Shown piece by piece: positions 9,794 to 26,967 of a stretch of DNA of 64,000 bases. This stretch comes from Armatimonadota bacterium. GTDB lineage: Bacteria; Armatimonadota; UBA5829; DTLH01. Both the position numbers and the translations under genes were made by a program. Every line of letters begins with the position of its first letter. Positions within the stretch are counted from its first letter, which is position 1. Location: positions 1 through 64,000 of the forward strand of contig JAKPFN010000147.1 of assembly GCA_029551395.1 (NCBI GenBank), in the 5' to 3' direction. The notes under the pieces are model-generated. The model had not been told where the DNA came from. It worked only from the letters and a program-made list of their open reading frames with translations, and made no database searches.

Positions 9794-9854
9794 AACAGGT
9801 CAAATTCCTCCTACCTGATTCCTACCCCAACAAGCATCAAAGCTCACACACCAC

Positions 9855-9893
9855 ATAAAAAAATAGGGTCAGTGCCTTATGAGCCTGACCCTA
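9855..9893 (-). terminator. Rho-independent terminator of the metzincin-like gene
   Basis: On the minus strand the 9-bp stem TAGGGTCAG / CTGACCCTA is followed by a run of T residues (TTTTTTTA). It lies just after the stop of the 9916..11943 gene and separates it from the nitroreductase gene downstream. Confidence 0.9.
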
Positions 9894-9915
9894 GCTGCTT
9901 CAATATAAATTGATT

Positions 9916-11943
9916 TTAATGTTTCACTTTATACTCCCCGGCTAAATATACCCTTTCATCTCCCTTTACCTTTACAACAACTGGAATTTCTGCCTTTTCA
10001 GTCTGTCCCCCAGCCCAGGCTGTGTTGAATTCAGTCACGCAAGTAAATCCGTACATTTCCTGGTTATCTTTCTTTACTATTATTAGAAAGACGCCATTAA
10101 GGCCAACTACATGTATAGGCCCAAATGGATTGTCACTGAGAACACAACCGGTTTCTGTTGTATGTCTTCCGGCAGGTCGGTTTTTAAGTGCAAAGCGGCC
10201 TTTGCTGTCAGTCTTGCCTTTATGTACAGGTTTATTCTCGATAACTCGCAGTTCAGTCTGGAAAACTTGTATCTCTGCATCTGTTACGAGTTGGCCTTTT
10301 TCATCGTAGATCACAAGAGCAGACTGCTTAGGCATACAGTAGAGATATTCCCCGAAGTAACCACGCCGCTTGCCTTTTGTAACATTTAACCCTTGGACAT
10401 TGCTTGGAGAGTATAAGCTAAATAACCTTCCCAAATTAGGATGAGGGTCGGTTTCGCCTCCGCCCATAATTCCTCTATTCAAATAGCTATAACCTACACC
10501 ATTAACCTTGTTATCCGTAGGTTCAGTAATGAACTGGTAATCATCGATCAATCCTATCTGATGAGAGAGTTCATGCAGCCATGCATCATCAGGGCTTCCG
10601 ATATGGTTGAGATACTCATGTATCCCACCACTTCCTTTTCCCCAGGGATTATCATAAGCAGTCAAACCACGACCACCATCACATTCAAAATCAGTCTCAC
10701 CAACTCTATAAGGACCGCCGCCAAGCGCCACCATCTCGCCATCATCAACGTATTCCAGCTTACCCATCGCAACACGCTGAGTGATACCATCAGGCGCAAA
10801 ATCGTATTTTGAATACTCAAACAACCTGTTCATATACATCAACTGGCCCTGAAGCCAATCTTCACAGGACCTGGAACCAAACATGTTATACTTCGTTTCC
10901 ATCTGACTGAGCGCACCACGCTCGATCATAAACCTGTACATCAGCGCATTGGTCCTGATTGTAAGCTGGTCGTTATAAGTACAGTAACTCTCGCCATTCG
11001 GGATTATTTTGAAAGTCAGATCATGGTCTGCAGGATCCCATTGCCATTTCCAATCATAAGAAACCTTTTCACGTGGTTTCAGATCAGGAATATCACCCGA
11101 GGCTACTTCTTTACCATCAAGTATCCATACATATTTGCCGCCAAGCGGTCTTTTACCTTTGTTCTGGACGACAGCGGTAAATGTTACGCTCTCACCGAGG
11201 TCTGGTTGATGTTTAACATCCGGGTTTTGACAGATACCTATCTCTACCCTTGGGTTTTCTTTGGTTCGAACGTATTTCGTTACATCATAACGGTCATATT
11301 TGGGATTTCTCTCGATGATCAGAACATCAAGGTCACCTGTATCAGGATTAGGAGGCATGTATGACAGAGGTTCAGACCCAAATTTGACTCCATCAACAAG
11401 TATATGATGCGCACATCCTTCAGGGAATCCACCTCCACTGAAATGTATCTCGAAATAGTCGATATGCTCGATCGATGGGCCTAGAAACCGTGTTATCTCC
11501 CATCCTGGAGCATCCTTCAATGGAATTCTTATTGTCTTCCACTCGCCAGATGTATCACCAGCAAAAATGTGATTATCTTTTGCAGGCTGAATGCGAATAG
11601 TACTGCCATTGCGGTTCCACATATATAGAGTTGGATTCTGCCAGCCTAATTGCATCCCCTTTTGGGGTTTTACTTTAATCTCAAGATACTCTACATTGGT
11701 CAAGTTCCAGTCCGCATCTTTGAAAACAGGAAAAGTGAGATAATGTGTGCTCCAGTTGGAATGGTTTAGTGCTAAAGCAATCTTTCCTTCATTGACATTT
11801 TCAGTTACAGGATTCATTATAGCCAGATAAACACAGTCCATCGCACCACATGACCAAAGCTCTGGCATCTCAGTATAGTCAATCTGTGCCATTACCATAC
11901 CTGAGAACATTAATAGAATTGCCAGTATAAATGTACATCTCAT
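9916..11943 (-). CDS. Secreted metzincin-like protein with CARDB-type domain
   Basis: The product is 675 residues with a signal peptide (cleavage near MVMAQ, residue 19). An N-terminal beta-sandwich (about 30-190) is followed by a CARDB/APHP-like domain (about 230-330: VTFTAVVQNKGKRPLGG). A zinc-protease-like module follows, with HELSHQIGLID at 457-467, the metzincin pattern HExxHxxGxxD, and a possible Met-turn at 492 (IMGGG). A carboxypeptidase-regulatory-like beta domain (about 540-600: VTDAEIQVFQTE, KTDSKGRFAL) completes it. Family knowledge makes this a candidate extracellular zinc peptidase; substrate and activity are inference. It is a single gene with its own terminator. Confidence 0.65.
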   Translation of the reverse strand: MRCTFILAILLMFSGMVMAQIDYTEMPELWSCGAMDCVYLAIMNPVTENVNEGKIALALNHSNWSTHYLTFPVFKDADWNLTNVEYLEIKVKPQKGMQLGWQNPTLYMWNRNGSTIRIQPAKDNHIFAGDTSGEWKTIRIPLKDAPGWEITRFLGPSIEHIDYFEIHFSGGGFPEGCAHHILVDGVKFGSEPLSYMPPNPDTGDLDVLIIERNPKYDRYDVTKYVRTKENPRVEIGICQNPDVKHQPDLGESVTFTAVVQNKGKRPLGGKYVWILDGKEVASGDIPDLKPREKVSYDWKWQWDPADHDLTFKIIPNGESYCTYNDQLTIRTNALMYRFMIERGALSQMETKYNMFGSRSCEDWLQGQLMYMNRLFEYSKYDFAPDGITQRVAMGKLEYVDDGEMVALGGGPYRVGETDFECDGGRGLTAYDNPWGKGSGGIHEYLNHIGSPDDAWLHELSHQIGLIDDYQFITEPTDNKVNGVGYSYLNRGIMGGGETDPHPNLGRLFSLYSPSNVQGLNVTKGKRRGYFGEYLYCMPKQSALVIYDEKGQLVTDAEIQVFQTELRVIENKPVHKGKTDSKGRFALKNRPAGRHTTETGCVLSDNPFGPIHVVGLNGVFLIIVKKDNQEMYGFTCVTEFNTAWAGGQTEKAEIPVVVKVKGDERVYLAGEYKVKH

Positions 11944-12133
11944 TACTGCCTCTTACTCCCTTTTGGATTGATAATTATGGATAATTCAACCACGGCCAGT
12001 CAGGCTGCCATACATCAATGATACTACCAGAAGTCCTCTGAGATAAACACATCCTAGACTCCACGGGTTGAATAAGTCTGCTTCAACGGGTAAACGTTGT
12101 TGATAAATGACTCAAATTTAAGAGGTTTAAGGA

Positions 12134-12775
12134 TTGAAACAGACAACAGGTGAATCAGCAAAACACGCTGCAATGGAGGAACTGAAGACTCGGTCAATGG
12201 GAAAGGTGCCGAATCTATGTGCCCCTGGCCACCCTCTGGTCTGGGGAGAAGGATCTCTAGCAGCTAAAGTGGCAATAGTGGGCGAAGCGCCTGGTGATAA
12301 AGAAGAACAACTAGGCAGACCATTCGTAGGACCAGCCGGAGCGCTTCTTGATAGAGAACTAAAACAAGCAGGACTGGATAGAAAAGATATATGGATCACA
12401 AATGCCGTAAAATGCAGGCCAGTCAAAGAAATCAGCAAGCAGATTGTCAACCGATCTCCAACTGTTCGAGAAATACGAGGTTGGAGTGAGACACTGATGG
12501 AAGAACTGGAAATCATAGCCCCACAAATAATTCTATGCGCTGGCGCTGTCGCTGCAAGAGCGATTATACGTAAAGATTTCGCATTAACTAAAGAACGAGG
12601 CAGGTGGTTCAACGGCCCATTAGGAACAATGGTCATTGCAACTTTTCATCCGGCATATATCCTTCGTCAAACAGGAGAAGATTGGGACAGGACAATAAAA
12701 CTATTCAAATCGGACATAAGGAAAGTAGCAGAAGCCATCGAATCAGGCGAAAAAGAACCAGAAGCGCATATTTAA
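12134..12775 (+). CDS. Uracil-DNA glycosylase, family 4/UdgX-like, with incomplete cluster ligands
   Basis: The product is 213 residues, starting at a TTG with AGAGG and AAGGA upstream. It removes uracil from DNA in base-excision repair if active. Motif 1 is GEAPGDKEEQLGRPFVGPAG, followed by ITNAVKCRP; motif 2 is HPAYILR. The GEAPGD form lies between family 4 and the cross-linking UdgX branch, but the UdgX loop KRRIH is absent. Canonical family 4 enzymes hold a [4Fe-4S] cluster with four cysteines. Here the N-terminal CxxC is reduced to one cysteine (NLCAPGHP), and the cysteine expected after NRxPxxxEI is replaced (EIRGW). Only two of four ligands remain, so the cluster is probably lost. Confidence 0.85.
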   Translation: MKQTTGESAKHAAMEELKTRSMGKVPNLCAPGHPLVWGEGSLAAKVAIVGEAPGDKEEQLGRPFVGPAGALLDRELKQAGLDRKDIWITNAVKCRPVKEISKQIVNRSPTVREIRGWSETLMEELEIIAPQIILCAGAVAARAIIRKDFALTKERGRWFNGPLGTMVIATFHPAYILRQTGEDWDRTIKLFKSDIRKVAEAIESGEKEPEAHI

Positions 12776-12839
12776 AAAGTAGAGATTATTAATTCATGTA
12801 AATGGGTATAAGCATACAGACTCTCAGTTAGATTTATAA

Positions 12840-12860
12840 CATGGGGAATAATTCCCCATG
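12840..12860. promoter_or_regulatory. 21-base near-perfect dyad, operator-like
   Basis: CATGGGGAAT-A-ATTCCCCATG is symmetric over ten bases on each side of a central A. It lies 64 bases after the uracil-DNA glycosylase stop and about 77 bases before the small zinc-ribbon gene. No T-run follows and there is no loop, so it resembles a repressor-binding operator more than a terminator. The regulator is unknown. Confidence 0.45.
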
Positions 12861-12936
12861 AGGCTGCAAAGTGCTTGCTTGGCACAATTATTGCAGCGGA
12901 TTTGGCGGGTGTTGTATTTTGGAAGGGAGCCTGAAA

Positions 12937-13137
12937 ATGACAGTCAAGTGCTTCTGGTGTGGAGCCAGTAATGACAAGGCTTCTGATTACTGCGGGACAT
13001 GTGGACGAAAACTGCAGTGGTCCAGCTTTTTTAATGCGCTGCTGCGCCCATCTGTTGGCTGCCTCGTGAATGACAATCAATCAATATCCAAGGATCTGGA
13101 TCCAGTGGCTGCAAATACTCCTATTATCGCTGCCTGA
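12937..13137 (+). CDS. Small zinc-ribbon protein
   Basis: The product is 66 residues. The first 25 form a zinc ribbon with two Cys pairs, CFWCG and CGTCG, separated by about ten residues (NDKASDY). The tail has no recognisable domain. I chose the ATG at 12937 because GGAAGGGAGC stands upstream; the track start at 12871 has none. Such ribbons act in protein or nucleic-acid contacts, but no specific role can be given. An operator-like dyad precedes the gene. It ends about 80 bases from the convergent GAF gene. Confidence 0.6.
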   Translation: MTVKCFWCGASNDKASDYCGTCGRKLQWSSFFNALLRPSVGCLVNDNQSISKDLDPVAANTPIIAA

Positions 13138-13215: not shown

Positions 13216-14595
13216 TCAGGCAACCAGTTCATGGTATCTATCTGATATGTGATCATGCTTTATACTCTCTATCGCTGGTGATACCGCAGCAGCAATTGTC
13301 TCAAGCAGTCTCATTCTTCTTTCATCTATAGAATATACCTCCGGTAGGAAAATGTTAAGGACACCTATCACTTTTCCCTGATAAGGCAGCGGCACTGAAA
13401 CTGCTATTCCATTGCTCCTGGCAAGAGTTCTCCAAGGCAGGAATTCCACATCGGAAAAGACTTCTCGTACGATCTGTACTTTACCTGTCTGAAATGCGCG
13501 GGCTGTATGACCACTGTGAAAACCAGGTCTGCGTTCCGGTTTGATCGAATAGGAATTGCCAACTGCTATAGATGAATCATCGATTCCGTATATTGCTGCA
13601 AGGGTAAGTTCATCAGCAGCATTATATGGCAGATAAACCGCAACAGCAGATGCCTTGAAGCCTCCTGCTACAACACGCACAAGCGTGGCACACAATTCAT
13701 CCAGATTGCTGGCTCCGACGAGTGACCAAGAGACCTTCTGTAAAGCATTCAAATCTTCCATCCGGCTTGCAGCTCCTCTATGAGCAAATTCATTTTCCAG
13801 ACTAAGCCCGATTACAAGCGCAATAACACCAGCTAACTCCAAACATTTTGTCTGGAGCCATACAGTCTGTGGATTCTGAAAAAATGCCAGCGACATAACA
13901 GAGGCCATGAAAACACTAACAGACCAGTAGCACATCGGGACAGCTATTTCATCTTGCTTGGATCCTGCAAGTGTCTGGGTTTCATAAATGAGCCAAGTGA
14001 GTAATGTCACAGATACAATTGAAGCAGCTAATCGTGGATCAATATTGGTGTTGCGAAGGATTTGGCCTATTTCATCTAACGCGCCGAGACGCCATCCTGC
14101 ATAGATTATGAATGTCAGAGCAATTGCTCTTGCATAACTCCTCCATCCTGTTCGATAACCACTTGCTCTGGCTTTTGACGCTTGAACTCCCATCAAAAGC
14201 AACATTATAGTAAGAGGAAACAACGTAAGCCGTAGTATCTGCAGGTATTCGGATACATTGCTTTTGGTAAGTAAATTTGTGGATGGCCCAATAACAGTTG
14301 TAGCTGTAAGTGCTGCAAAAGCGGCAGTATAGAAGAACCAACTCCTCCATCTGGAGTGTGCCAGCCTCATAAGACAGTGGGTAAAAGTTGTAAAATAGAC
14401 AGCACCAATAGCAGCATAAATACCTGCGTATATCACGGGAGTGATCGTTTTCACAGGCGGTTTGATCATAGTTGCAACCAAACCTATCCCCAAGCATAGT
14501 CCCCAAATAGCTAACCCAATTACCATGCTTATGGAAAGAGCTTTTTTCTTAGAGCCAGGCTGCCCATCATTACCAACATCTGTACAACTGTTCAT
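13216..14595 (-). CDS. Multi-pass membrane sensor with GAF domain
   Basis: The product is about 459 residues from the ATG at 14595, which has GAGGTAG upstream; the track start at 14679 adds 28 residues without a ribosome site. The N-terminal half has seven or eight predicted membrane helices (for example ALSISMVIGLAIWGLCLGIGLVA). The C-terminal part is a GAF domain, about residues 285-440, with VAVYLPYNAADELTLAAIYG and GIAVSVPLPYQGKVIGVLNI. There is no kinase, GGDEF or phosphatase module, so it is a stand-alone sensory or docking protein. The GAF domain would bind a small molecule in the cytoplasm. It diverges from the polysaccharide cluster. Confidence 0.7.
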   Translation of the reverse strand: MNSCTDVGNDGQPGSKKKALSISMVIGLAIWGLCLGIGLVATMIKPPVKTITPVIYAGIYAAIGAVYFTTFTHCLMRLAHSRWRSWFFYTAAFAALTATTVIGPSTNLLTKSNVSEYLQILRLTLFPLTIMLLLMGVQASKARASGYRTGWRSYARAIALTFIIYAGWRLGALDEIGQILRNTNIDPRLAASIVSVTLLTWLIYETQTLAGSKQDEIAVPMCYWSVSVFMASVMSLAFFQNPQTVWLQTKCLELAGVIALVIGLSLENEFAHRGAASRMEDLNALQKVSWSLVGASNLDELCATLVRVVAGGFKASAVAVYLPYNAADELTLAAIYGIDDSSIAVGNSYSIKPERRPGFHSGHTARAFQTGKVQIVREVFSDVEFLPWRTLARSNGIAVSVPLPYQGKVIGVLNIFLPEVYSIDERRMRLLETIAAAVSPAIESIKHDHISDRYHELVA

Positions 14596-14828
14596 AACTA
14601 CCTCGCTGCATAATACTTCTATCGCAGCGCGACAATACCGCTGATCATCACCGATACCATCTATATTGATTTTTGGCAAAAAAATGCTTCAAGCTCATGG
14701 TATTTACATCGGTCGGGCATGTTTTCTGAAGCCAAACAGTGGGTATCTCAATGTGCAGAACACTGGTGGGGATTATTTATTCCCAATTGTTACTTTAGCC
14801 ATGGTCGCAGGCAGTATAAGCTGCTTCT

Positions 14829-15881
14829 ATGCCGGAGGAAAAATTAGTGGAAACACATGTCGAAAACCTCGCTGGTAACTCAGCACCTATTGCTGCAACC
14901 GAAACAATTTCTGTGGTCATCCCACTTTATAATGAACGGGACAGCCTGGAACAACTGTTCACAGAATTAAACAACACTCTGAGGATGATCGGCAGACCGT
15001 ATGAGATCATATTCGTCAATGACGGCAGCACAGATGGTTCAATCGAAGTGCTGCATAAACTGTGTGAAAGAAGCCCTCTTGTTAAGATCATCGACTTTAG
15101 ACGTAATTTTGGCAAAGCTGCTGCTCTTGCCGAAGGATTCAAAGAAGCAAAGGGCGATATCATCTTTACACTTGATGCAGACTTGCAGGATGATCCCAGA
15201 GAGATCCCAAATTTTCTAAGGAAATTATCCGAAGGTTATGATCTGGTTTCAGGTTGGAAATACCATCGGCACGATCCTATTTCAAAGACACTCCCATCTA
15301 AACTATTCAATAAGGTAGCATCGGCAACCACTGGTGTTAAACTGCATGACTTCAACTGCGGGTTCAAAGCTTACAGGAGAGAAGTCATTGAGAATGTTAA
15401 TCTTTATGGCGAACTTCACAGATATATTCCTGCACTGGCATTTGGAAGCGGGTTTAAAGTAGCAGAGATAAGAATCAACCACAGGCCAAGAAAGTTCGGA
15501 AAATCCAAATACGGCATTGCAAGGTTCACTCGTGGCCTGTTGGATCTGCTTACGGTACTTTTCATCACTCGCTATACAAAGAAACCGCTCCATCTTTTTG
15601 GCTCTTTAGGGCTTTCGTTGCTTTTCGCAGGAACGGCAATAAATACTTACCTGGCAATCATTTGGCTCGGTGGAGAATCAATAGGTCGGCGTCCTTTGCT
15701 TATGTTGGGAGTACTCTTGATGATCCTGGGCGTTCAATTCATATCTCATGGACTTCTTGCTGAGATGATTACTCACATGAACAACAATCAGGATTCTTTA
15801 GTATCACGGAAAATTTGCAGGGCTGATGTTCAGGATGACTCACATAACATTCATCACGATGATGCCAAACCCTGGATGTAA
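14829..15881 (+). CDS. Family 2 glycosyltransferase, polyprenyl-phosphate type
   Basis: The product is 350 residues. The GT-A domain shows VVIPLYNERDSLEQLF, NDGSTDGS, the DxD-like DADLQDDP, and RPRKFGKSKYG, a signature of the DPM1/GtrB/ArnC branch. Two membrane helices follow (about 245-300). This branch moves a sugar from a nucleotide donor to undecaprenyl phosphate at the inner membrane, giving a lipid-linked sugar for later transfer outside. It opens a ten-gene plus-strand cluster. The ribosome site is weak (AGGCAG, 13 bases upstream), so the start is approximate. Confidence 0.85.
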   Translation: MPEEKLVETHVENLAGNSAPIAATETISVVIPLYNERDSLEQLFTELNNTLRMIGRPYEIIFVNDGSTDGSIEVLHKLCERSPLVKIIDFRRNFGKAAALAEGFKEAKGDIIFTLDADLQDDPREIPNFLRKLSEGYDLVSGWKYHRHDPISKTLPSKLFNKVASATTGVKLHDFNCGFKAYRREVIENVNLYGELHRYIPALAFGSGFKVAEIRINHRPRKFGKSKYGIARFTRGLLDLLTVLFITRYTKKPLHLFGSLGLSLLFAGTAINTYLAIIWLGGESIGRRPLLMLGVLLMILGVQFISHGLLAEMITHMNNNQDSLVSRKICRADVQDDSHNIHHDDAKPWM

Positions 15882-15924
15882 TTAATTATTTTACCTCATT
15901 AGATAATAAAAGGATCATTATACT

Positions 15925-17067
15925 TTGCGAATAAGTATTGTTGGCCCTTCATTCCCTTTCAGGGGTGGAATAGCGCATTATACTACGCTGCTTTGCAGTA
16001 GTTTAGGAGCCAGACATGAAGTCAGTCTGGTGTCTATGTCGCGATTATATCCCAAGCTGTTGTTCCCTGGCAGAACACAGACGGATACCAGCGAAGTAAA
16101 ACTTGCTATCGATAATGCAGAGCAGCTTGTTGATTCCATGAACCCATTTTCGTGGATTCGGGCATCGAACCGGATACGCGAATTAGCACCTGATCTGGTC
16201 ATTATTCAATGGTGGCATCCATTCTTTGCTCCTGCATTTGGCACAATTGCCCGCAGATGCAGGAAATTCTCCAAGGTAATGTTTCTTTGCCATAATGTGC
16301 TTCCGCATGAACAAACCGGGCCTGTCAGACTGCTGACGAAATTCGCGTTGTCCAGTGGGGATATGTTCGTAGTCCACTCAGAGGAAGACCTGCAGAATTT
16401 GAAGGATTTGATTCCATCTGCAAAGGTCAGAAAAGGCCGGCATCCAACTTATGAAGTGTTCAATCAGCACCCAATCGAAAAGCAGGACGCTCGTGCGGAA
16501 CTCAACTTGAAAGAGGATCAGAAAGTTATCCTGTTTTTCGGACTTATACGCGAGTATAAAGGGCTGAAGTACCTGATTCAGGCAGTACCATCGATCCTTA
16601 CAACTGTGGATATACAACTGCTGATAGTTGGTGAGTTCTACGATGACCGGGAGAAATATATCTCACTGATCAAAGAGCTTGGCATCGAGCATAAAGTGCG
16701 GATTAGAGACGAATACATACCAAACGAAGCTGTCGGAACCTATTTTGCGGCTGCTGACCTTGTGGTGCTTCCTTATATCTCAGCAACTCAAAGCGGCATA
16801 GCACAAATCGCTTACGGATTCGACCGGCCTGTGGTTACAACAAATGTCGGAGGGCTTGCAGAAGCTGTAAAACACGAGAAAACAGGACTTGTGGTGCCTC
16901 CGGCAGACCCAAAAGCACTTGCAGATGCAGTCGTGCAGTTCTTCAAAGAAGATTTGTCAGATAGTTTCGTGCATAACATCAGAGAGTTTCGAGAAGAGTT
17001 CTCTTGGGACAGAATGGTGGAAATCATAGAAGATTTAGCATCCAACAACAATGGAGACAGCAGATGA
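15925..17067 (+). CDS. Family 4 (GT-B) glycosyltransferase
   Basis: The product is 380 residues, starting at a TTG with AAAAGGA upstream. The N-terminal glycine-rich loop GPSFPFRGGIAHYTTLL binds the acceptor side. The C-terminal half has the GT4 donor-site segments FGLIREYKGLKYLIQAV and SATQSGIAQIAYGFDRPVVTTNVGGLAE. This retaining enzyme would add a sugar to a lipid-linked intermediate on the cytoplasmic face. The stop overlaps the start of the next gene by four bases (ATGA), so the two are translationally coupled. The sugar is not identifiable. Confidence 0.88.
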   Translation: MRISIVGPSFPFRGGIAHYTTLLCSSLGARHEVSLVSMSRLYPKLLFPGRTQTDTSEVKLAIDNAEQLVDSMNPFSWIRASNRIRELAPDLVIIQWWHPFFAPAFGTIARRCRKFSKVMFLCHNVLPHEQTGPVRLLTKFALSSGDMFVVHSEEDLQNLKDLIPSAKVRKGRHPTYEVFNQHPIEKQDARAELNLKEDQKVILFFGLIREYKGLKYLIQAVPSILTTVDIQLLIVGEFYDDREKYISLIKELGIEHKVRIRDEYIPNEAVGTYFAAADLVVLPYISATQSGIAQIAYGFDRPVVTTNVGGLAEAVKHEKTGLVVPPADPKALADAVVQFFKEDLSDSFVHNIREFREEFSWDRMVEIIEDLASNNNGDSR

Positions 17068-18038
17068 GAGCACTGGTCACAGGAGCTACAGGGTTCATTG
17101 GCAGTCATCTTACATCCAAACTGATAGAATCTGGGCATAAAGTAAGGGCTTTTGTTCGCCAGACCAATGATAGCAGTTGGCTTGAATCGATCGGCGCAGA
17201 GATTGTTCACGGTTCGCTCATCGACCTTAATGCGGCACAGGAAGCATGTAAAGATGTAGATATTGTCTTCAACCTTGCTGGCCGAATGGGCGGATATAAA
17301 TCTACTGAGCAAGAAATGCGGCTTGTGAATGTTACCGCAGTTGAAACCCTACTGGAAGCTTGCCAGAAAAGTGAGGTTCAGCAGTTTATACACTGCAGCA
17401 CACCTGGAGTAGTAGGGATGGTTGGAATAGCACCAGAATGTATGCCATATAACCCGACTGGTCCTTATGAGCACACAAAGTACGAAGGGGAACGCATCGC
17501 ACTCCAGTACCATGACAATGGCAAGGTTCCTGTAACAGTGGTGCGACCTGACTTTGTATATGGGCCTGGAGACCTTCATAAACTAAAGATGTTTAAAGCA
17601 ATCCAGGAAGGCCGCTTCCCTATCATCGGCAGTGGTAACAGCCTCATTCATCCTACTTATATTGATGATATAGTCAGCGGATTCGAATTAGTAGCTAATA
17701 ATGAAGCAGCCTACGGTGAGAAGTTCAATTTCGCTGGACCACGCCCGGTAACGATAAAAGAGCTTGTTACAACAATAGCAGATAAGCTCAATGTTAAAGT
17801 TACCAGGCTTCGGATTCCAGTACCAGCGGCAAGACTTGCTGCAGTTGGAGCTGAAGTAGCTGCAAAACTGGTATCCAAAGAACCAATAGTGACTCTTTAT
17901 CAGATAAACTTCTTCACCCGTGACCATGCTTCTGACATTTCAAAGGCCAAACAGATTTTAGGATTTCAACCTCAGGTTGATCTCCAGGAGGGCATAAATA
18001 GAACAATCCAATGGTACAAAATACAGAGTCACCTTTAA
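17064..18038 (+). CDS. NAD-dependent sugar epimerase/dehydratase
   Basis: The product is 324 residues from the ATG at 17064; the track start at 17004 lies inside the upstream gene. The Rossmann loop is VTGATGFIGSHL and the catalytic pair is in YEHTK (YxxxK), with a serine/threonine just upstream in HCSTPGVVG. This extended short-chain dehydrogenase acts on a nucleotide sugar, or, as in related hopanoid and sterol enzymes, on a lipid. Its place between glycosyltransferases and DUF362 genes favours sugar modification. The end overlaps the next gene by 28 bases. Confidence 0.85.
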   Translation: MRALVTGATGFIGSHLTSKLIESGHKVRAFVRQTNDSSWLESIGAEIVHGSLIDLNAAQEACKDVDIVFNLAGRMGGYKSTEQEMRLVNVTAVETLLEACQKSEVQQFIHCSTPGVVGMVGIAPECMPYNPTGPYEHTKYEGERIALQYHDNGKVPVTVVRPDFVYGPGDLHKLKMFKAIQEGRFPIIGSGNSLIHPTYIDDIVSGFELVANNEAAYGEKFNFAGPRPVTIKELVTTIADKLNVKVTRLRIPVPAARLAAVGAEVAAKLVSKEPIVTLYQINFFTRDHASDISKAKQILGFQPQVDLQEGINRTIQWYKIQSHL

Positions 18039-19153
18039 TAATACCAGTTGCTATTGCCAAAACCAGTGCCAAATCCGATGATGTAGCCGCAGCCTGCAAT
18101 CAGGTCATCAGTATGGTTGGAGGTCTGGATCATATCATAAAACCAGGCCAAACAGTACTGATAAAGGCTAATATAGTGGCCCCAATCCTCCATGCTGTGA
18201 CAAGTAAAGAGGTACTTATCTCTGTAATCCGTATCATTGAAGATGCTGGTGCAAAAGCAATCGTCGGTGGATGCCCTGGATTTGAATATGATTCCCACAA
18301 AACAATGGAAATCCTGGGATTAGACACAATCAAGAAGTTCACCAATGCACGGATATTAAACTTCGATGATGATGATTTTGCCGACGTACCATTAGACCAT
18401 CATAGAGTTAAGCGGGTAAGAGTCGCGCGCTCAGCAATCGAGTCCGACCTAATAATCAATATTCCAAAGCTGAAACGGCACAAGCTGACCGATGTAAGTA
18501 TCTCGATAAAGAACTGTATGGGGTTACTTGAAAAGAGTAGCAGAAGGGAGATCCATGCAAAGGGACTGGATGAAGGCATTGCAGCTTTTTATGAACTCTT
18601 TCATCCTGCAATGAGTATAGTTGACGGCATTACGGTACCTATATCCGGCGCTGTATACGGTGACTATTTTAATCTGGGAATTGTTGCAGCTTCTACGGAT
18701 ATGCTAGCTCTTGATACTACCCTATGCAGTTTCATTGGCCAAGACCCTCTCAAGGTCAAACATCTGGTGATGGCTGGAAAATACAGCCAACCGAAGCCAG
18801 TAGTGTTAGGTTACAATGAAAATCAAGCTGTTATTAAAGCTACCAACCGCAAAATAAGGCTGAAGGTTTACAGACACCTTTTTGCATCGATATATGCACT
18901 CGATCATTATCTATCTCGATATAGAAACGATAGCTTGATTCCTTGGTTTCATAAAAATTTTGGCATCCATCCTGTAATTCATTGGAAGTTGTGCGATTTA
19001 TGTGAAGCCTGTACATTAGTTTGCCCGGTCAATGCAATCGATCTTAAATCGCGTAGATTAGACTATACGAAATGCAGCAAGATAAGGTGCATGTTTTGTG
19101 TGGATGCCTGTCCACGGGGAGCAATCATACCCAAAAATTTATTTAAAACCTAA
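18011..19153 (+). CDS. DUF362 protein with C-terminal two-cluster ferredoxin domain
   Basis: The product is 380 residues. The N-terminal DUF362 domain (about 35-270) carries GQTVLIKANIV and LINIPKLKRHKLTDVSISIKNCMGLL, both typical of the family. The C-terminal 60 residues form a 2[4Fe-4S] ferredoxin module (CDLCEACTLVCPVNAID and CSKIRCMFCVDACPRGAI). DUF362 proteins are predicted flavo- or iron-sulfur electron-transfer proteins without a settled general reaction. Inside a polysaccharide locus it may feed electrons to the radical SAM enzyme or reduce a lipid or sugar intermediate; that is inference. It is followed by a second DUF362 gene lacking the ferredoxin. Confidence 0.82.
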   Translation: MVQNTESPLIIPVAIAKTSAKSDDVAAACNQVISMVGGLDHIIKPGQTVLIKANIVAPILHAVTSKEVLISVIRIIEDAGAKAIVGGCPGFEYDSHKTMEILGLDTIKKFTNARILNFDDDDFADVPLDHHRVKRVRVARSAIESDLIINIPKLKRHKLTDVSISIKNCMGLLEKSSRREIHAKGLDEGIAAFYELFHPAMSIVDGITVPISGAVYGDYFNLGIVAASTDMLALDTTLCSFIGQDPLKVKHLVMAGKYSQPKPVVLGYNENQAVIKATNRKIRLKVYRHLFASIYALDHYLSRYRNDSLIPWFHKNFGIHPVIHWKLCDLCEACTLVCPVNAIDLKSRRLDYTKCSKIRCMFCVDACPRGAIIPKNLFKT

Positions 19154-19177
19154 GTATTGTGTTTGGAGGGAAAGAAA

Positions 19178-20398
19178 ATGGCAGTTCATCTCAGCGCAGT
19201 GCAAACTTATGATGCTCAAAAGACAAGGGAGGCAATTGAACAAGGTCTCAAGGCAACAGGGGCAAAAGTCGACGGAGCTAGAACCGCTGTTATCAAGATA
19301 AATGTTGTTCAAACTCGCGCGCCTGAGACTGGAATTGTGACACATCCTGTAGTAGCCGAAGCACTAATCGATATTCTTAAAGCCCATGGTGTTATAGATA
19401 TCGCAATTGCAGAGGCTCCGGCACTTGGAGTAGATCCGAGAAAGGCATTCAGAGTATCCGGTTACACGGAACTTTGCAAACGTAAAGGAGTCCGGTTGAT
19501 AAACCTTTTTGATGCGCCGAGAGAAAAAGTAGACATTGGATATGGATATGCGAACTTACCAAATGTCTATGATGATGAAGACCTATCCAAATATGAATGC
19601 GGGTGGATGTCCATTCCAAAAATCATGCTGGAATCCGATTTATACATCAACCTTGCAAAGCTAAAAACCCATAACAGAACGACTGTCACTCTGACAATGA
19701 AGAACCAGTGGGGATTGCTTTCATTCAAAGACAGGCAGATGTATCACCGTATCGGCTTGCATGAACCTATAGTACAGATCGCCAGAGCAGTCCAACCTCA
19801 TATAACTGTAGTTGATGGGATACTGGCGCTCGAGGGCAATGGCCCAATACTCGGTGTTGCCAAACATGCCGGACTCATCCTGGTCGGCACGAACATGGTA
19901 GAAACCGACATAACAGGTGCCAGGCTTATGGGAGCTGATCCTAAGTCGATCATACATCTTCAGCGTGCTGTAGAGCTTGGATTGGGCAATTGGGATGTAG
20001 AAGTTTTAGGGGAAAAGGTAGATAATCTTGCACAAGTATTCGATCCTGCACCGCAGGATGTAAAGAGAAATCACAATTTTTATGTGTGGCGTAACTACAG
20101 AGCATGTCATCTGGATGATGATGCGTTCCACAGTGCGCTGAAAATCGCAAAACGTAATCCGAAATACTGGATGTTCCTTGTAAAACTCGCATACTACTCA
20201 TTCTTCAAAAGGATCGATATTGTTCGCGGGCGAGGCAACAAGATGCCGCAATTCTATAAAGGGCAAAAGATTATCGTAAGTGGAGACTGCGCAAGAGATC
20301 TGCTTGAAAACTATGAAGAGCTGCCTGCCAATGTAATCCACATACCAGGATGCCCGCCTGACCCGGAAGATATCATAAAAGCAGTTATCAAGATGTGA
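19178..20398 (+). CDS. DUF362 protein with PGCPP C-terminus
   Basis: The product is 406 residues from the ATG at 19178, which has GGAGGG nine bases upstream; the track start at 19157 is not supported. The DUF362 core has TAVIKINVVQTRAPETGIVTHP and YINLAKLKTHNRTTVTLTMKNQWGLL. There is no ferredoxin module. Instead the last 45 residues contain GDCARD and IHIPGCPPDPEDI, which resembles the end of NuoB-like small subunits (a GxC and a PGCPPxPE motif that ligate an iron-sulfur cluster). It probably works with the preceding ferredoxin-bearing paralogue as a two-protein redox unit. Confidence 0.8.
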   Translation: MAVHLSAVQTYDAQKTREAIEQGLKATGAKVDGARTAVIKINVVQTRAPETGIVTHPVVAEALIDILKAHGVIDIAIAEAPALGVDPRKAFRVSGYTELCKRKGVRLINLFDAPREKVDIGYGYANLPNVYDDEDLSKYECGWMSIPKIMLESDLYINLAKLKTHNRTTVTLTMKNQWGLLSFKDRQMYHRIGLHEPIVQIARAVQPHITVVDGILALEGNGPILGVAKHAGLILVGTNMVETDITGARLMGADPKSIIHLQRAVELGLGNWDVEVLGEKVDNLAQVFDPAPQDVKRNHNFYVWRNYRACHLDDDAFHSALKIAKRNPKYWMFLVKLAYYSFFKRIDIVRGRGNKMPQFYKGQKIIVSGDCARDLLENYEELPANVIHIPGCPPDPEDIIKAVIKM

Positions 20399-20405
20399 GG
20401 TGCGG

Positions 20406-21887
20406 ATGACACCCAAAGCACCAGCAAAAAACAAGCCAGGTGGGGATAGTCTGGCTCGTGGAACCATAGCGCTCATTAGTGTACAAATAGCGTTTATGGC
20501 AGGCGGATATATTATCCACTTTTACCTTGGCCGTTCTCTTGGCCCGGTTCAGTACGGCGTATTTGGAGTGGTAATTACCTTTCTGATATGGGTCGAGGTA
20601 TCGCTAACCGGTGGATTTCCATATGCAATACGTAAATTCGGTGCAGAAAAGCCTGAATCGATGTCAGCGATTGCCCGTGCAGCAATGCGTGGGCAACTGA
20701 TATATAGTATTCTTTTATGTATCATCGCAGTTGCAGCATCGCCATGGATAGCTGCACTGCTTAGAGATCCCAGTCTTACCGGATTTCTGCGCCTTGCATC
20801 TCTGGATATCCCCATCTTTGCTTTCTACTTTGCATACAATGCTGTATTGAACGGTAAACGGCTTTACAGCAGACAGGCAATAGCTATGTCTATGTATGCA
20901 GTTACAAAGGTGGCGGCAATTATACTGCTGGTAATGCTTGGCTTTGGTATCAAAGGTGCACTCGTCGGGAATATAATAGCATCTGCAGGCGGCCTTATGG
21001 TGGCTTTTTTGCAGGTTGGTAGGCTACAGGAAGCTGAGCCTTATCCTATCCGGCGGCTTATCAGTTATTCTGGCGCAACTGCGACTTTGTCAGTCTGTTT
21101 CACGCTTTTGATCAGCGTGGATGTGTTCATGGTAAAAGCTATGAGCAGCATCTCCGCTGAAGTTGGATATTATACTGCTGCAAGCACTATTGCCCGCGCT
21201 CCATTTTATGTATTTCTTGGTATTTCAATGGCCACATTACCTGTTATATCACGCGCAGCCAGTGAATCAGATAACTCATTGGTAAGGCAGTATGTCAGGC
21301 AGGCATTCCGTCTGCACATGCTGCTGCTTGCACCGATAACAGCGATCATTTCGGGCACTGCAGTCGGGACTGTCGGGCTTCTTTATACCAATCAATATAG
21401 CGAAGCAGGTCCTGTGCTTGGAATTCTCATTACTGCACTCATGATGTTTGGATTTCTCCATACTCTTTACAACGTTATGGTTGCTTATGGGGATACACAT
21501 ACACCTGTATTGGGTACTACAGTGCTGATTATACTTAACGTCCTGGGGAGTGTAGTGTTAGTGCCGAAGATGGGAATCACAGGCGCAGCAGTTGCAGCAA
21601 TCATAACATCCATAATCGGTTTCTTTGTATCCAGCATGATATGCAAAAGAAGGCTTGGTGTCTTCATACCTTTGGGTTCAGTCATAAGAATTGCTTTTGC
21701 TGCGGTTGTGATCTATACAGTGGCTCGGTTCATACCACTGACAGGCATTGAATTGGTCGGGCTATACATTATGCTCTTTTTGCTTTATGGAGTCGTCCTG
21801 GTTGTAACAGGAGAGATAAAACGGATCGATATAGACAAAGTTGGTGCAGCAATCGGTTTATCCAGGAAGATATCAAAACCTGCTTGA
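20406..21887 (+). CDS. Polysaccharide flippase (MOP superfamily), copy 1
   Basis: The product is about 493 residues with roughly 12-14 hydrophobic helices and the family opening IALISVQIAFMAGGYIIHFYLGRSLGPVQYGVFGVV. This Wzx/PST-type exporter moves lipid-linked sugars from the cytoplasmic to the outer face of the inner membrane. I chose the ATG at 20406, with GAGGT five bases upstream, over the GTG at 20400. It starts seven bases after the DUF362 stop. A second, different flippase follows at once, suggesting two export substrates or one recently acquired copy. Confidence 0.85.
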   Translation: MTPKAPAKNKPGGDSLARGTIALISVQIAFMAGGYIIHFYLGRSLGPVQYGVFGVVITFLIWVEVSLTGGFPYAIRKFGAEKPESMSAIARAAMRGQLIYSILLCIIAVAASPWIAALLRDPSLTGFLRLASLDIPIFAFYFAYNAVLNGKRLYSRQAIAMSMYAVTKVAAIILLVMLGFGIKGALVGNIIASAGGLMVAFLQVGRLQEAEPYPIRRLISYSGATATLSVCFTLLISVDVFMVKAMSSISAEVGYYTAASTIARAPFYVFLGISMATLPVISRAASESDNSLVRQYVRQAFRLHMLLLAPITAIISGTAVGTVGLLYTNQYSEAGPVLGILITALMMFGFLHTLYNVMVAYGDTHTPVLGTTVLIILNVLGSVVLVPKMGITGAAVAAIITSIIGFFVSSMICKRRLGVFIPLGSVIRIAFAAVVIYTVARFIPLTGIELVGLYIMLFLLYGVVLVVTGEIKRIDIDKVGAAIGLSRKISKPA

Positions 21888-21902
21888 GAAGAGATCTAAA
21901 TT

Positions 21903-23390
21903 ATGAAGAAACCTCTAGGAAGAAATATAATTACTGGAGTAGGTTGGACTTTTTCCAGCGCCGTTACGGTACGTGCAATGCAGTTTCTTGTGACTGTAGT
22001 GCTTGCACGTTTGCTTGCACCTTCAGCCTTCGGCTTATTCGCCCTTGGCACGATGATCATTACCGCTATTACCCTATTCCGAGACCTTGGTCTGGGGCAG
22101 TCGTTGATTTACCACAAAACAGATGTCCAAAAGAACGCAGAAACAACGTTTTTGATGAGCGCTGTATTCGGACTATTATCCTGGGGCGCTGTATTTGTGG
22201 CAAGTCCTCTGCTTGCCAAGCTGTTTGGAGGTCCTGATCTTATCTGGCCGCTTAGAGTGATGAGCTTTTCTGTCGTCTTGACGTCTCTTGCGACAGTTCC
22301 TTCAGTGCTGCTTGAGAAAGAATTGGAATTCAAGAAACGCGCGTTGCCTGAGTTTGCTATGGGAATATCATATGCGGCAGCGGCGTTGATTCTGGCTGTT
22401 AAAGGGTTTGGTGTCTGGAGCCTTGTTGGCGGTCATTTGGCTATGTCGGCAGCATCATTGATTGTCACATGGCTCGTTGCTGGATGGAAACCTGCAGCAT
22501 CTTTCCATAGAGAAAGCGCTAAGAAGACTTTGAACTTCGGAAAGCATCTAATGGCCGCTTCAGTGCTCTTTCTTGCATTCTTTTATATAGACCATGCAGC
22601 AATTGGCAGATGGTTGGGAGTTACAGCGTTAGGCTATTACAGCATTGCGTTCACTATATGCAACCTGCCTGCTACCAACATCACCCATGTTGTCAACAAG
22701 GTTATGTACCCCACCTACTCCAAGCTCAATGAAGATATGGCTGCACTACGGAAGGCTTATACTCGAACAGTAAAAAGCATCGCAATGCTGTCATTTCCGA
22801 TTGCTTGTTGGCTGTTTATGGCTTCAGAGGATTTTGTATTAGGGTTTTTCGGGCCTAAGTGGAGTCCTGCAATCCCGCTATTCAAGATTCTTGCGCTTTA
22901 CGGGATGTTTCGTTCGATAGGAGCTACAGCCGGAAGCGTGTTTATGGCTGTTGGGGAACCGAAGTGGGTATACAGGCTTAATTTCCTTCAGATAGCAATA
23001 GCAGCTCCTTTGGTTTATCCCGTGGCAATAAAGTTTGGGACTATAGGTGTTGCAACGTTATTTACAGTAGCCTATACCACAGGCACCAGTCTGGCTCTTT
23101 GGAAAGTCGTGCAGATATTAGAAATGACCGTTTGGGAGTACTTTAAGATGTTCCAAAGCTCATTTATTGCATCAGTAGCAACGGTAATTGGGTCTTTCCT
23201 TGTAGCTGCCTTGATATTACCGTCCGGAGTCACAACTGCCATAGGTTCTGCAATACTTGCGCTGGTTGCTTATCCAATCACAGCCATTGCATTAGATAAA
23301 GAATCTTACCGTGCAGCACGATCAATGCTCAGCCCATCTGCAAATCAGGTTTATGCTACAGCTTCAGAGGGTAAAGTCGCTTCTGAATAA
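21903..23390 (+). CDS. Polysaccharide flippase (WzxC-like), copy 2
   Basis: The product is 495 residues with about 14 helices. The N-terminus, GVGWTFSSAVTVRAMQFLVTVVLARLLAPSAFGLFALG, is characteristic of the WzxC/oligosaccharide-flippase branch, distinct from copy 1. Established role: translocation of undecaprenyl-diphosphate-linked repeat units. Fifteen bases separate it from copy 1. No Wzy polymerase or Wzz chain-length gene is recognisable here, so polymerisation is encoded elsewhere or the product is a short oligosaccharide. Confidence 0.87.
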   Translation: MKKPLGRNIITGVGWTFSSAVTVRAMQFLVTVVLARLLAPSAFGLFALGTMIITAITLFRDLGLGQSLIYHKTDVQKNAETTFLMSAVFGLLSWGAVFVASPLLAKLFGGPDLIWPLRVMSFSVVLTSLATVPSVLLEKELEFKKRALPEFAMGISYAAAALILAVKGFGVWSLVGGHLAMSAASLIVTWLVAGWKPAASFHRESAKKTLNFGKHLMAASVLFLAFFYIDHAAIGRWLGVTALGYYSIAFTICNLPATNITHVVNKVMYPTYSKLNEDMAALRKAYTRTVKSIAMLSFPIACWLFMASEDFVLGFFGPKWSPAIPLFKILALYGMFRSIGATAGSVFMAVGEPKWVYRLNFLQIAIAAPLVYPVAIKFGTIGVATLFTVAYTTGTSLALWKVVQILEMTVWEYFKMFQSSFIASVATVIGSFLVAALILPSGVTTAIGSAILALVAYPITAIALDKESYRAARSMLSPSANQVYATASEGKVASE

Positions 23391-23412
23391 CCTGCTGTTA
23401 AAAGGTATAAAT

Positions 23413-24582
23413 ATGACCTCAAAGACTTTATTGACTGATCTGTTTCCTAAAGCAATAAATTTCAAATTGGCTCGCTCAGGTATTACCAAGCCTGGGCCTC
23501 CGATAAATATCACGCTATCCGTAACCAACATGTGCCAATCCCGCTGCAAAACATGCAACATCTGGGAGATGTACCGCAGCGGGTCCGATTATGCACAAGG
23601 TAAATTCTCTGATGAAATGAAGCTTCAGGACTTCGAACGTTTGTTCAAGAGCCTTGGACATGTATACTTCGTCAATATGAGCGGCGGCGAGCCATTCCTG
23701 CGTAAAGATTTCCCTGAGATCGTTCAACTGGCAAATGAACTGCTCACTCCGCATGTAATCCACACTCCCACTAATGCAATTTTGCCTTCACGCATCGAGT
23801 CTATGACTGAAGACATCTTAAAGAGACTCAAGGCAAGCGGCAGAAACGTTATTTTTACGGTAAAACCTTCTTTCGATGGTGTCGGAGACTTTCACGATGA
23901 AATCCGAGGGGTTCCAGGTAATTTTGATAAGCTGCTGGAAACACTGCAAAGGCTCAAGCAGCTTAAGAAACGGTATTCGAATCTGGAAGTAGGAGCTGGA
24001 ACTGTTATATCCAACTTCAACGTCAGGCATATTGCTGAAGTTGCCCGTTATGTTCATACACTGGAACTGGATAGCTACATCAGCGAGATTGCTGAGCATA
24101 GAAGCGAAATGTTCAATGAGGATGATCCCATAACACCTTCTGCTGAAGACTACGAAAAGGCCATCAGAGTCTTCTCAGAGGAAAGCCGCAGACATCTGGC
24201 TGGAGCTGGCAAGCTGGGCAAAACTACCGGAGCATTCAGGTTGATTTATTACGACCTTGTCGTACGCATACTTCGGCAAAAACGCCAGGTGCTGCCGTGT
24301 TATGGCGGCATATCGAATGTCCATATCAGCCCATTCGGCGATGTCTGGCCTTGCTGCGTGCTCGGTTATGAATATTCCTTTGGACGGCTGGCAGATTATG
24401 ATTATGATTTCTGGAAGATCTGGAATTCATCAAGAGCTGATGAGGTTAGAAGCTACATTAAAGCAGGCAATTGCTGGTGTCCATTGGCTAATCAGGCATA
24501 TTCCAATATACTTCTCAGTCCTATAACTATGGCAAAGGTGACTGGCGTCTTGCTCAAGCAGTTATCCAGCCGCAAGGGGTGA
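23413..24582 (+). CDS. Radical SAM/SPASM-type enzyme of the polysaccharide cluster
   Basis: The product is 389 residues from the ATG at 23413; the track start at 23311 lies inside the flippase gene. The radical SAM cluster motif is CQSRCKTC (CxxxCxxC), followed by MSGGEPFLRKDF, the SAM-binding GGEP element. The C-terminal part has a SPASM/twitch-like cysteine set: PCYGG, GDVWPCCVLG and CWCPLANQ. Such enzymes use a 5'-deoxyadenosyl radical and auxiliary clusters on peptides, sugars or lipids. No small peptide substrate gene is beside it, so a sugar or lipid substrate fits better. The two DUF362 proteins are possible electron donors. Confidence 0.85.
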   Translation: MTSKTLLTDLFPKAINFKLARSGITKPGPPINITLSVTNMCQSRCKTCNIWEMYRSGSDYAQGKFSDEMKLQDFERLFKSLGHVYFVNMSGGEPFLRKDFPEIVQLANELLTPHVIHTPTNAILPSRIESMTEDILKRLKASGRNVIFTVKPSFDGVGDFHDEIRGVPGNFDKLLETLQRLKQLKKRYSNLEVGAGTVISNFNVRHIAEVARYVHTLELDSYISEIAEHRSEMFNEDDPITPSAEDYEKAIRVFSEESRRHLAGAGKLGKTTGAFRLIYYDLVVRILRQKRQVLPCYGGISNVHISPFGDVWPCCVLGYEYSFGRLADYDYDFWKIWNSSRADEVRSYIKAGNCWCPLANQAYSNILLSPITMAKVTGVLLKQLSSRKG

Positions 24583-24591
24583 TTATCAGCA

Positions 24592-26967
24592 ATGAAGGAA
24601 AACGGTAGGGCTGGTATTCTTATAATCTTAGTGCTTGCCTTGTTCACATTGTTGATTTACCACGATGTAATCTTCAGGCCGGGAATCATTTTTGGTCAGG
24701 ATACAATCGTGCAGGGTTATCCTCTCAACTGGTATGATGCTCAGGCCATGAAAAACAGCGGTGCGTCTAGCTGGTTTCCGTACATGATGGCTGGGATTCC
24801 TATGACTCCATCTGGGCTGTTTTACCCGACTGATTGGATGCTTCTCGTAATGCCTGTCACCAGAGCTGTTACCTGGCGTTATATTCTGCACACCTTTGCT
24901 GCCGCTGCTTTCATGTATTTGCTGCTCAGAAACTTCAAGAGAAGCACTACTGCTTCTTTGATTGGAGGAGCAGCATTCGGATTCTCCGCATTCTTCATCT
25001 CAAAAGTCTATGCAGGCCATGGCGGCGCTATATGGTCAGGGATATGGATTCCGCTTATACTGCTTTTTCTGGATAAAGCAATAGAATCCCGCCGTGTCGT
25101 TTTTGCTGCGTTAACAGGCGTGGTAATTGGCATACAGATTTTAGGGCAGCATCCTCAGTATGTCTTTTATTCACTTCTGGCGGCACTGTTATATGCAGTC
25201 TGGAGGATTGTGCCTAAACTAACAAAAGAAAAAAGATTGATACTCACCCCGACATATATACTACTGGCAGCCTTGGTAATTGCATTCGCATTTATGATAT
25301 CGGCTCCGCATCTTCTATCATTTGCATATATGACTGCGCTATCTAACAGAGGAGAAGGAACTGGGTATGAGTTTGCATCATCGTTTTCACTTCATCCAGC
25401 ACAACTTATTACTGCCTTTTCTCCGTCTTTTTGGGGATCTCCTGTAAAACACAATTCTACATTCGGAGCGCTTTATTGGGATGGGGCGCTTTTTATCGGA
25501 GTAATCCCATTCCTGTTGGCTGTAATTGCTTTGTTCTTCGTGCGAGAATCACGGGCAAATTACTTTAAAGTATTGGGAGTCTTATCTGTATTGATAGCGT
25601 TGGGCAGCTATACGCCATTCTTCAGGTTGATATATCAAATCCCGGGCTTTGACATGATAAGAGCCCCGAGTAAAATCCTGTTTTTGTACACTTTTGCTGC
25701 TGCTGCGCTTGCTGCGTATGGACTCGATGTAGTTTTTTCTGCTGCATCAAGGCTGCAATCAAGACAGACAGCTATTCAGGCAATAAAAGCTGAGAAGGTT
25801 CTCGCGTATTCATCTCTTGGCTTGCTCGCGTTACTTGCTATATGGGCCGGAGGCCAATCTCCGATATTTGCTGCTGCAGAAGGGATGATCAAATCTACAC
25901 GCACTAATCCCGAGACTGTGCTATCCAAACTCTCAGGGCTTTATGCACTACAGCTTTCCGGACTGGCATGGGCTGCTGTATTATCTGCCAGCAGCGCTTT
26001 AACTGTTACAGCACTACTTCACAAGCTCATAAATATCAAAACGGCTGCAGCAGTTTTAGTAGGATTGGTTTTTGCAGACCTGCTGCTGTATGCTGATCCC
26101 CTGCTCTATACCACAAATGCCAGAAAAGCTTACACCAGCGGAGACAGGATGGCAATCAATATCATCAAAGCAGATAACGATATGTTTCGAGTCCTGCCGC
26201 TCGATACTCAGGCTTTTCAGTATGCCCAGGGGGTTTTCGATAACCTAGAGAGTGTCAATGGCTACTACCCTGTATCTTTAGCCCGATATGCAGCTTATGT
26301 CGGTGCAATTAACAACGAACCACCGTATGCAGATGTCAGTGCAGACATCAGAAATCCTGACTCACCTCTTGTCGGGCTGTTAAACGTTAAATACGTGCTT
26401 TCATCGCGACCGATCAACAAAAAAGGGCTTATCGAAGTCCATTCAGATAAGTCTTATGTTTACTACAACGGCAACTGGAAACCTAGAGCATTCACTGTTC
26501 ATACTGCAAAAGCTGTAGAAAACTCGGAAGCTGCTCTTAGAGAGGTAAAAAACCCGAATTTCAATCCTGAAAAGGTAGTCATTCTGGAAACAACAAAACC
26601 TTTACCTAAGACTTCCGGTGATCCATCTAAGAATAAAATCAAGTATACTAAATATTCGGCAGCCAGTCAGCAATTGCAGGTAGATATGGCGTCTGATGGT
26701 TATTTATTCCTGAGCGAAGTCTATTATCCTTTGTGGAAGGCCTGGGTAAACGGGAAACCAGCGGAAATCATGCCGGCAAACTACCTGTTCCGAGCAATTT
26801 ATATACCGAAAGGCAAGCATGATGTGCGCTTGCAGTATGTTGATACTCCACGTCAGGTTGGGATTCAACTGTTTACTGCTGCGGTTATCTTGCTGACAGC
26901 GATACTTGTTATCGATGTATTACGGCAAAAGCATCGCAAGAATAGCGTCACTGATACAGCTATCTGA
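24592..26967 (+). CDS. YfhO-family multi-pass membrane protein (GT-C-like)
   Basis: The product is 791 residues with about 12 membrane helices and a C-terminal soluble beta region (about 590-745) containing GYLFLSEVYYPLWKAWVNGKPAEI, the recognisable YfhO tail. YfhO-type proteins are GT-C-fold membrane glycosyltransferases that use polyprenyl-phosphate sugars to decorate wall or surface glycans outside the membrane. The GT2 enzyme at the start of the cluster could supply that lipid-linked sugar. It ends the cluster and overlaps the convergent folP gene by eight bases. Confidence 0.85.
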   Translation: MKENGRAGILIILVLALFTLLIYHDVIFRPGIIFGQDTIVQGYPLNWYDAQAMKNSGASSWFPYMMAGIPMTPSGLFYPTDWMLLVMPVTRAVTWRYILHTFAAAAFMYLLLRNFKRSTTASLIGGAAFGFSAFFISKVYAGHGGAIWSGIWIPLILLFLDKAIESRRVVFAALTGVVIGIQILGQHPQYVFYSLLAALLYAVWRIVPKLTKEKRLILTPTYILLAALVIAFAFMISAPHLLSFAYMTALSNRGEGTGYEFASSFSLHPAQLITAFSPSFWGSPVKHNSTFGALYWDGALFIGVIPFLLAVIALFFVRESRANYFKVLGVLSVLIALGSYTPFFRLIYQIPGFDMIRAPSKILFLYTFAAAALAAYGLDVVFSAASRLQSRQTAIQAIKAEKVLAYSSLGLLALLAIWAGGQSPIFAAAEGMIKSTRTNPETVLSKLSGLYALQLSGLAWAAVLSASSALTVTALLHKLINIKTAAAVLVGLVFADLLLYADPLLYTTNARKAYTSGDRMAINIIKADNDMFRVLPLDTQAFQYAQGVFDNLESVNGYYPVSLARYAAYVGAINNEPPYADVSADIRNPDSPLVGLLNVKYVLSSRPINKKGLIEVHSDKSYVYYNGNWKPRAFTVHTAKAVENSEAALREVKNPNFNPEKVVILETTKPLPKTSGDPSKNKIKYTKYSAASQQLQVDMASDGYLFLSEVYYPLWKAWVNGKPAEIMPANYLFRAIYIPKGKHDVRLQYVDTPRQVGIQLFTAAVILLTAILVIDVLRQKHRKNSVTDTAI

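Follow-up and report, generated by a model that had tools for sequence, protein, structure and literature searches.

Why would two DUF362 proteins and a radical S-adenosylmethionine (SAM) enzyme sit among genes that look fit to build a surface polysaccharide? The question is raised by a stretch of 64,000 nucleotides from an Armatimonadota bacterium (JAKPFN010000147.1, positions 1 to 64,000; the window hereafter), which is contig C36 of a 3.58-Mb genome (G000) that is 98.7% complete. The initial annotation of this DNA placed the three genes, together with two flippases, between a sugar epimerase and a YfhO-type glycosyltransferase, and all the genes that it named are present where it put them, as family scans confirm for each. 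The radical SAM enzyme is indeed tied to glycan assembly, since its orthologs in a second phylum adjoin orthologous family 2 and family 4 glycosyltransferases (GT2 and GT4) and a short-chain dehydrogenase/reductase (SDR). We lean, with a little better than even confidence, to the view that the operon makes a surface glycan on a polyprenyl carrier, that the radical SAM enzyme modifies a sugar of this glycan, and that the DUF362 pair has an auxiliary part, redox or epimerising in nature.

The radical SAM enzyme and its partners in two phyla

The radical SAM gene (23413-24582, + strand) encodes a protein with a recognisable radical SAM core (PF04055, 59 bits) and a CxxxCxxC motif at C41/C45/C48 that is invariant in an alignment of 11 homologs. 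Its C-terminus is of the SPASM/twitch type (PF13186, 33 bits, above the cut-off), where, set beside the complete complement of cysteines for two auxiliary clusters, the only conserved ones are C296, C314(/C315), C354 and C356. No curated NCBIfam family was reached, and the best solved relative by sequence is SkfB. The CxxxCxxC core and SPASM-type C-terminus are shared with the SPASM/twitch enzymes SkfB, MoaA, cytosylglucuronate decarboxylase and tetraether synthase, but the similarity to the enzyme of the locus is remote and confined to the core. By its neighbours, described below, the enzyme belongs to a glycan-linked subfamily.

A profile of the enzyme, run against 284 genomes of the second phylum, that of G291, yielded 16 strong matches (E<1e-79). 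The eight closest orthologs, 46-49% identical to the enzyme of the window, are contiguous with a GT4 (36-49% identity) and mostly also with a GT2 (48-55%) and an SDR. Set against 20 control stretches of the same phylum, drawn from eight genomes, GT4 occurs near 8/8 close orthologs and 0/20 controls (p=3e-7), GT2 near 6/8 and 2/20 (p=0.002), and SDR near 6/8 and 0/20 (p=7e-5), or near 14/16 and 0/20 when all 16 loci are taken. Row L184 of alignment A7, being out of frame, was disregarded. The L170 locus has, in addition, a methyltransferase, a DegT aminotransferase and a dehydratase-type SDR downstream, all usual for the synthesis of nucleotide sugars. In the remaining eight loci, where the radical SAM enzyme is 32-38% identical, 8/8 stretches hold an SDR; one of these also has GT2 and GT87, and another has both a nucleotidyltransferase and a B12-type radical SAM enzyme. 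In L182 (9555-12932) the homolog directly adjoins a B12-binding radical SAM gene, a nucleotidyltransferase and an SDR. Four additional loci of the second phylum contribute one more GT4 neighbour and two more SDR neighbours.

Sequence comparison shows that what the two phyla have in common is the unit GT2-radical SAM-GT4-SDR. A profile search detected DUF362 in 0/20 of the second-phylum radical SAM loci, so the radical SAM enzyme is part of a glycan module and requires no DUF362 neighbour. The initial annotation had stated that its proposal would fall if the genes were not co-conserved; they are for the radical SAM gene, which is linked to glycosyltransferases in both phyla, and are not for the DUF362 genes. 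That this glycosyltransferase-linked subfamily is common to two phyla suggests that radical chemistry is a regular step in the making of some bacterial surface glycans.

A comparable neighbourhood has been described in Brachyspira hyodysenteriae, where a plasmid block holds a radical SAM gene, a group 1 glycosyltransferase, an NAD epimerase and rfbC (PMC4267127). In both cases the radical SAM gene stands beside a glycosyltransferase and an NAD-dependent epimerase, in Brachyspira within a presumed surface-glycan (lipooligosaccharide) cluster, but this is a likeness of gene annotation, the Brachyspira function is putative as well, and DUF362 is not listed there. In view of this report, the earlier statement that such redox genes are not standard in glycan loci was too strong as far as the radical SAM gene is concerned. 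Our plasmid search with the enzyme of the window returned matches of 24-26% identity only, and our literature searches turned up no functional study of this type of radical SAM enzyme in polysaccharide loci.

Layout of the likely operon and its conservation within Armatimonadota

Gene calls and family scans delineate nine densely packed genes on the + strand, spanning 14829-26967. The first two, which the initial annotation had left out, are a GT2 with a C-terminal membrane segment resembling ArnC/CsbB/DPM polyprenyl-phosphate sugar synthases (14829-15881; PF00535, 125 bits), whose top NCBIfam match, PRK10714 ArnC at 200 bits, lies under the cut-off of that model, and a GT4 (15925-17067; PF13692, 100 bits). 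They are followed by an SDR of the sugar epimerase/dehydratase type (17064-18038; PF01370, 137 bits), which overlaps the GT4 gene in an ATGA. The next two genes encode DUF362-a (18011-19153; PF04015, 133 bits; Fer4, 38 bits), composed of a predicted LarA-fold domain and a C-terminal ferredoxin domain for two [4Fe-4S] clusters, and DUF362-b (19178-20398; PF04015, 150 bits), in which the same predicted domain is followed by a GDCA...PGCPP tail. Two flippases of the MOP superfamily come next, one MurJ/MATE-like (20400-21887; PF13440, 76 bits; MurJ, 60 bits) and one of the PST type, similar to Wzx and TuaB (21903-23390; PF13440, 254 bits; PRK10459, 256 bits with a cut-off of 273), and after the radical SAM gene the run ends with a YfhO-type GT-C membrane glycosyltransferase (24592-26967; PF09586, 60 bits). 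Intergenic distances do not exceed 43 bp, GT4/SDR and SDR/DUF362-a overlap, and a terminator scan found no + strand terminator-like site between the nine genes, which likely form one operon. Downstream of YfhO the run is closed by a convergent folP-type gene. The divergent gene upstream (13216-14679, - strand) encodes a 487-aa membrane protein that is GAF-like by eye and has no NCBIfam match.

The presence of a CsbB-like GT2 and a YfhO GT-C protein at the flanks of the locus recalls the three-component transmembrane glycosylation system YfhO/CsbB/GtcA (PMC8035078, PMC7389260), but to those components the locus adds two MOP flippases, GT4, SDR, radical SAM and DUF362. No GtcA-type flippase is found among the scanned locus proteins.

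Our survey of 291 Armatimonadota genomes recovered orthologs of the radical SAM enzyme in four, of DUF362-b in three and of DUF362-a in two. The whole order is kept in G001, which belongs to another genus of the same family and has an extra GT4 between the flippases; DUF362-a is 49% identical there, and the remaining proteins found by tblastn are 52-73% identical. That a second genus retains this order, its proteins being 49-73% identical, shows the cluster to be real rather than a chance assembly. In G005, from another family, two separate contigs hold GT4-SDR-DUF362-b and radical SAM-YfhO, and the gene order after DUF362-b differs; no DUF362-a gene stands between SDR and DUF362-b, and none was found at ortholog level elsewhere in that genome. 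YfhO follows the radical SAM gene in both G001 and G005. The fourth genome with a radical SAM ortholog, G055, has a copy of 40-42% identity next to a different GT2, without DUF362-b.

DUF362 genes elsewhere in the phylum mostly have other surroundings. Four of 28 other DUF362 loci have a single SDR or GT2 homolog nearby and 0/28 have a glycan-gene cluster. We reject the idea that DUF362 genes belong to glycan loci in general; among the DUF362 loci elsewhere in the phylum, a glycan-type neighbourhood is seen only at L077, on a separate contig of G055, where a DUF362-ferredoxin gene lies among three SDR genes, with an adjoining flippase-like frame and without a radical SAM gene (8822-13030). In an unrelated metagenome-assembled genome (MAG), a DUF362-ferredoxin gene follows a gene that looks radical SAM-like by eye and precedes a gene for a large membrane protein (L073, 8226-13041). 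Scanning a named contig collection with DUF362-b turned up three remote DUF362s besides two close loci, the nearest matches being Armatimonadota MAGs, one of them from groundwater; viral-contig scans gave no useful match.

The DUF362 proteins and the LarA family

We built AlphaFold2 models of DUF362-b (pLDDT 77) and DUF362-a (pLDDT 71) and compared each with the PDB. For either model, 18/18 matches at E<0.001 are LarA or LarA-like lactate/malate racemases (probability 1.00, TM-scores 0.27-0.45), although the two models share alignment rows and the fold results are thus not fully independent. Both proteins are accordingly predicted, on these models, to have a LarA-like fold. Sequence searches of solved structures retrieved ferredoxin domains only, the relation to LarA being visible by fold alone, and neither protein has a Pfam match to Lar_N (PF09861). 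That the two families are kin is already known, as DUF362 and LarA are grouped in one Pfam clan, CL0471 (PMC11770544); the residue match that follows is new relative to the literature we found.

In DUF362-b, H165, K175 and H190 are conserved in 25, 25 and 24 of 25 aligned DUF362s, and their counterparts in DUF362-a are H157, K167 and H182. A profile alignment sets these residues on the LarA motif PHxxAGYSGGRK...H, with a spacing that fits His174, Lys184 and His200 of LarA1, although the probability given by hhalign for DUF362 against LarA is low (2.6%, P=0.018), so that the fold match carries the weight. In LarA, Lys184 is the site of cofactor attachment and His200 is a nickel ligand (PMC11770544). 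His108, the second catalytic histidine of LarA, has no counterpart in DUF362, the aligned position in DUF362-b being A82, which makes a two-histidine racemase mechanism unlikely. Set beside the LarA superfamily (PMC11770544, PMC12611868), the DUF362s thus share a predicted fold and have counterparts, in the same order and at matching distances, of the Lys and His that serve cofactor and nickel in LarA, but differ in lacking both a Pfam Lar_N match and a His108 counterpart and in bearing C-terminal Fe-S elements instead.

The ferredoxin domain of DUF362-a has eight cysteines. In DUF362-b the conserved cysteines are 141, 310, 371 and 392, of which C371 and C392 belong to the GDCA...PGCPP motif and are the only two in the tail. 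The initial annotation called this tail NuoB-like, a comparison that does not hold up: there is no match to PF01058, two cysteines stand against the four of the NuoB cluster, and similar tails, of the related form YCxxC...GDCA...CPP, occur on other DUF362s of the phylum. Its redox label for the DUF362 domain itself is an assumption; our literature search found no functional work on DUF362.

Candidate genes for making the nickel-pincer cofactor of LarA are present in this genome. On contig C136 (L231, 327-3293), LarC and LarE genes flank a gene that is larB-like by position and sequence, unlinked to DUF362 or LarA, and the one LarA gene lies on C161. Among 61 relatives, in counts that adjust neither for kinship nor for which test was chosen, the presence of LarC tracks DUF362 (43/8/5/5, p=0.03) and not LarA (p=0.74). 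LarA is missing in 15/48 LarC-bearing genomes, and 14 of these 15 have DUF362. Three genomes (G003, G005 and G007) have 4-6 DUF362 matches each, yet lack LarC and have no LarE above the curated cut-off, and G005 among them carries the DUF362-b ortholog. As for linkage of larC or larE to DUF362, one contig of G017 has DUF362 with a partial LarE, and no wider pattern was seen. In about 15% of surveyed genomes larB, larE and larC are present and larA is absent, the users of the cofactor there being an open question (PMC11796402); the genomes with LarC and DUF362 and without LarA fit this puzzle of cofactor makers without LarA.

What the operon may do

If the operon builds a polyprenyl-linked glycan with a radical-modified sugar, the ArnC/CsbB-like GT2 would load a sugar onto polyprenyl phosphate, and GT4 and SDR would supply further sugars. 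The radical SAM enzyme would abstract a hydrogen atom from a sugar carried by a nucleotide- or lipid-linked intermediate, resulting in dehydrogenation, epimerisation or deoxygenation, while the DUF362s may play an auxiliary part, either redox or epimerising, in which they act on a sugar or sugar acid. The MOP flippases would then export the product, and YfhO would transfer a sugar on the outer face. Several points weigh against this interpretation. The substrates of radical SAM/SPASM enzymes are mostly peptides or proteins, and substrate, product and glycan stand here at the predicted level only. Family scans find neither an initiating phosphoglycosyltransferase nor a Wzy polymerase among the nine cluster genes, so that the cluster, despite its Wzx-type flippase, is not a complete Wzx/Wzy locus. 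The controls for the second-phylum comparison are few and come from eight genomes, and the compared loci are not phylogenetically independent. Lastly, DUF362-b adjoins GT4 and SDR in 3/3 genomes that carry it, and may after all be functionally coupled to glycan genes in this lineage.

The initial annotation had DUF362-a, through its ferredoxin domain, and DUF362-b feeding electrons to the radical SAM enzyme, which would modify a lipid-linked sugar or the lipid carrier. Radical SAM enzymes do require a low-potential electron, a ferredoxin domain with all eight cysteines is at hand, and the genes are adjacent in one operon that is kept in G001. Yet orthologs of DUF362-a and DUF362-b are rare in their own phylum, DUF362 is absent from 20/20 second-phylum loci, G005 has DUF362-b and the radical SAM enzyme without DUF362-a, other DUF362s lie outside glycan loci, and the modelled domain has the fold of LarA rather than of an electron carrier; because of the first three of these facts the chain is not conserved, and we consider it quite improbable. 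Radical SAM enzymes are usually served by a flavodoxin or ferredoxin encoded elsewhere. It is more likely that the DUF362 pair, with its predicted LarA-like fold, is an addition particular to Armatimonadota that carries out a redox or epimerising step of its own instead of being wired to the radical SAM enzyme. Alternatively, a SPASM-domain protein whose closest solved sequence relative is SkfB could be a maturase of a peptide or protein, akin to those of ribosomally synthesized and post-translationally modified peptides, whose product the glycan genes decorate. We hold this to be very unlikely, since a precursor-sized gene is absent between the operon genes and could not fit there, which supports a sugar over a peptide substrate, and it is GT2, GT4 and SDR that are conserved beside the enzyme in both phyla. 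A chance build-up, in which a variable polysaccharide island collected genes that have nothing to do with each other, would agree with the varying DUF362 content of relatives and with the different order in G005, but the order shared by two genera and the radical SAM-glycosyltransferase linkage in the second phylum leave it little room; it is largely refuted for the radical SAM gene, still possible for the DUF362s, and as an account of the whole locus hardly probable.

Another role for the DUF362s is that of LarA-like hydride-transfer enzymes acting on a sugar acid of the glycan, by epimerisation or, with the Fe-S centres, by net oxidation or reduction, with a nickel-pincer nucleotide or similar nucleotide cofactor on K167/K175. 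The top 18 fold matches of each model, the conserved H165/K175/H190 on the LarA motif, the larC, larE and larB-like genes of this genome and the better tracking of DUF362 than of LarA by larC among the 61 relatives all point this way. The missing His108 counterpart, the low hhalign probability, the uncorrected associations and the three DUF362-bearing genomes without LarC and without LarE above cut-off point the other way, and we regard this role as doubtful. Still less likely, in our judgement, is a wider proposition about the large DUF362 family: its members would have the LarA fold, carry the nickel-pincer nucleotide or a related cofactor on the conserved lysine, and link hydride transfer to their Fe-S centres, working in this locus next to a radical SAM enzyme to alter a surface sugar. 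If true, this would make DUF362 one of the sought non-LarA users of the cofactor whose existence is deduced from genomes with larBCE and without larA. The relatives that have LarC and lack LarA, nearly all with DUF362, offer in their own right a lead on such missing users.

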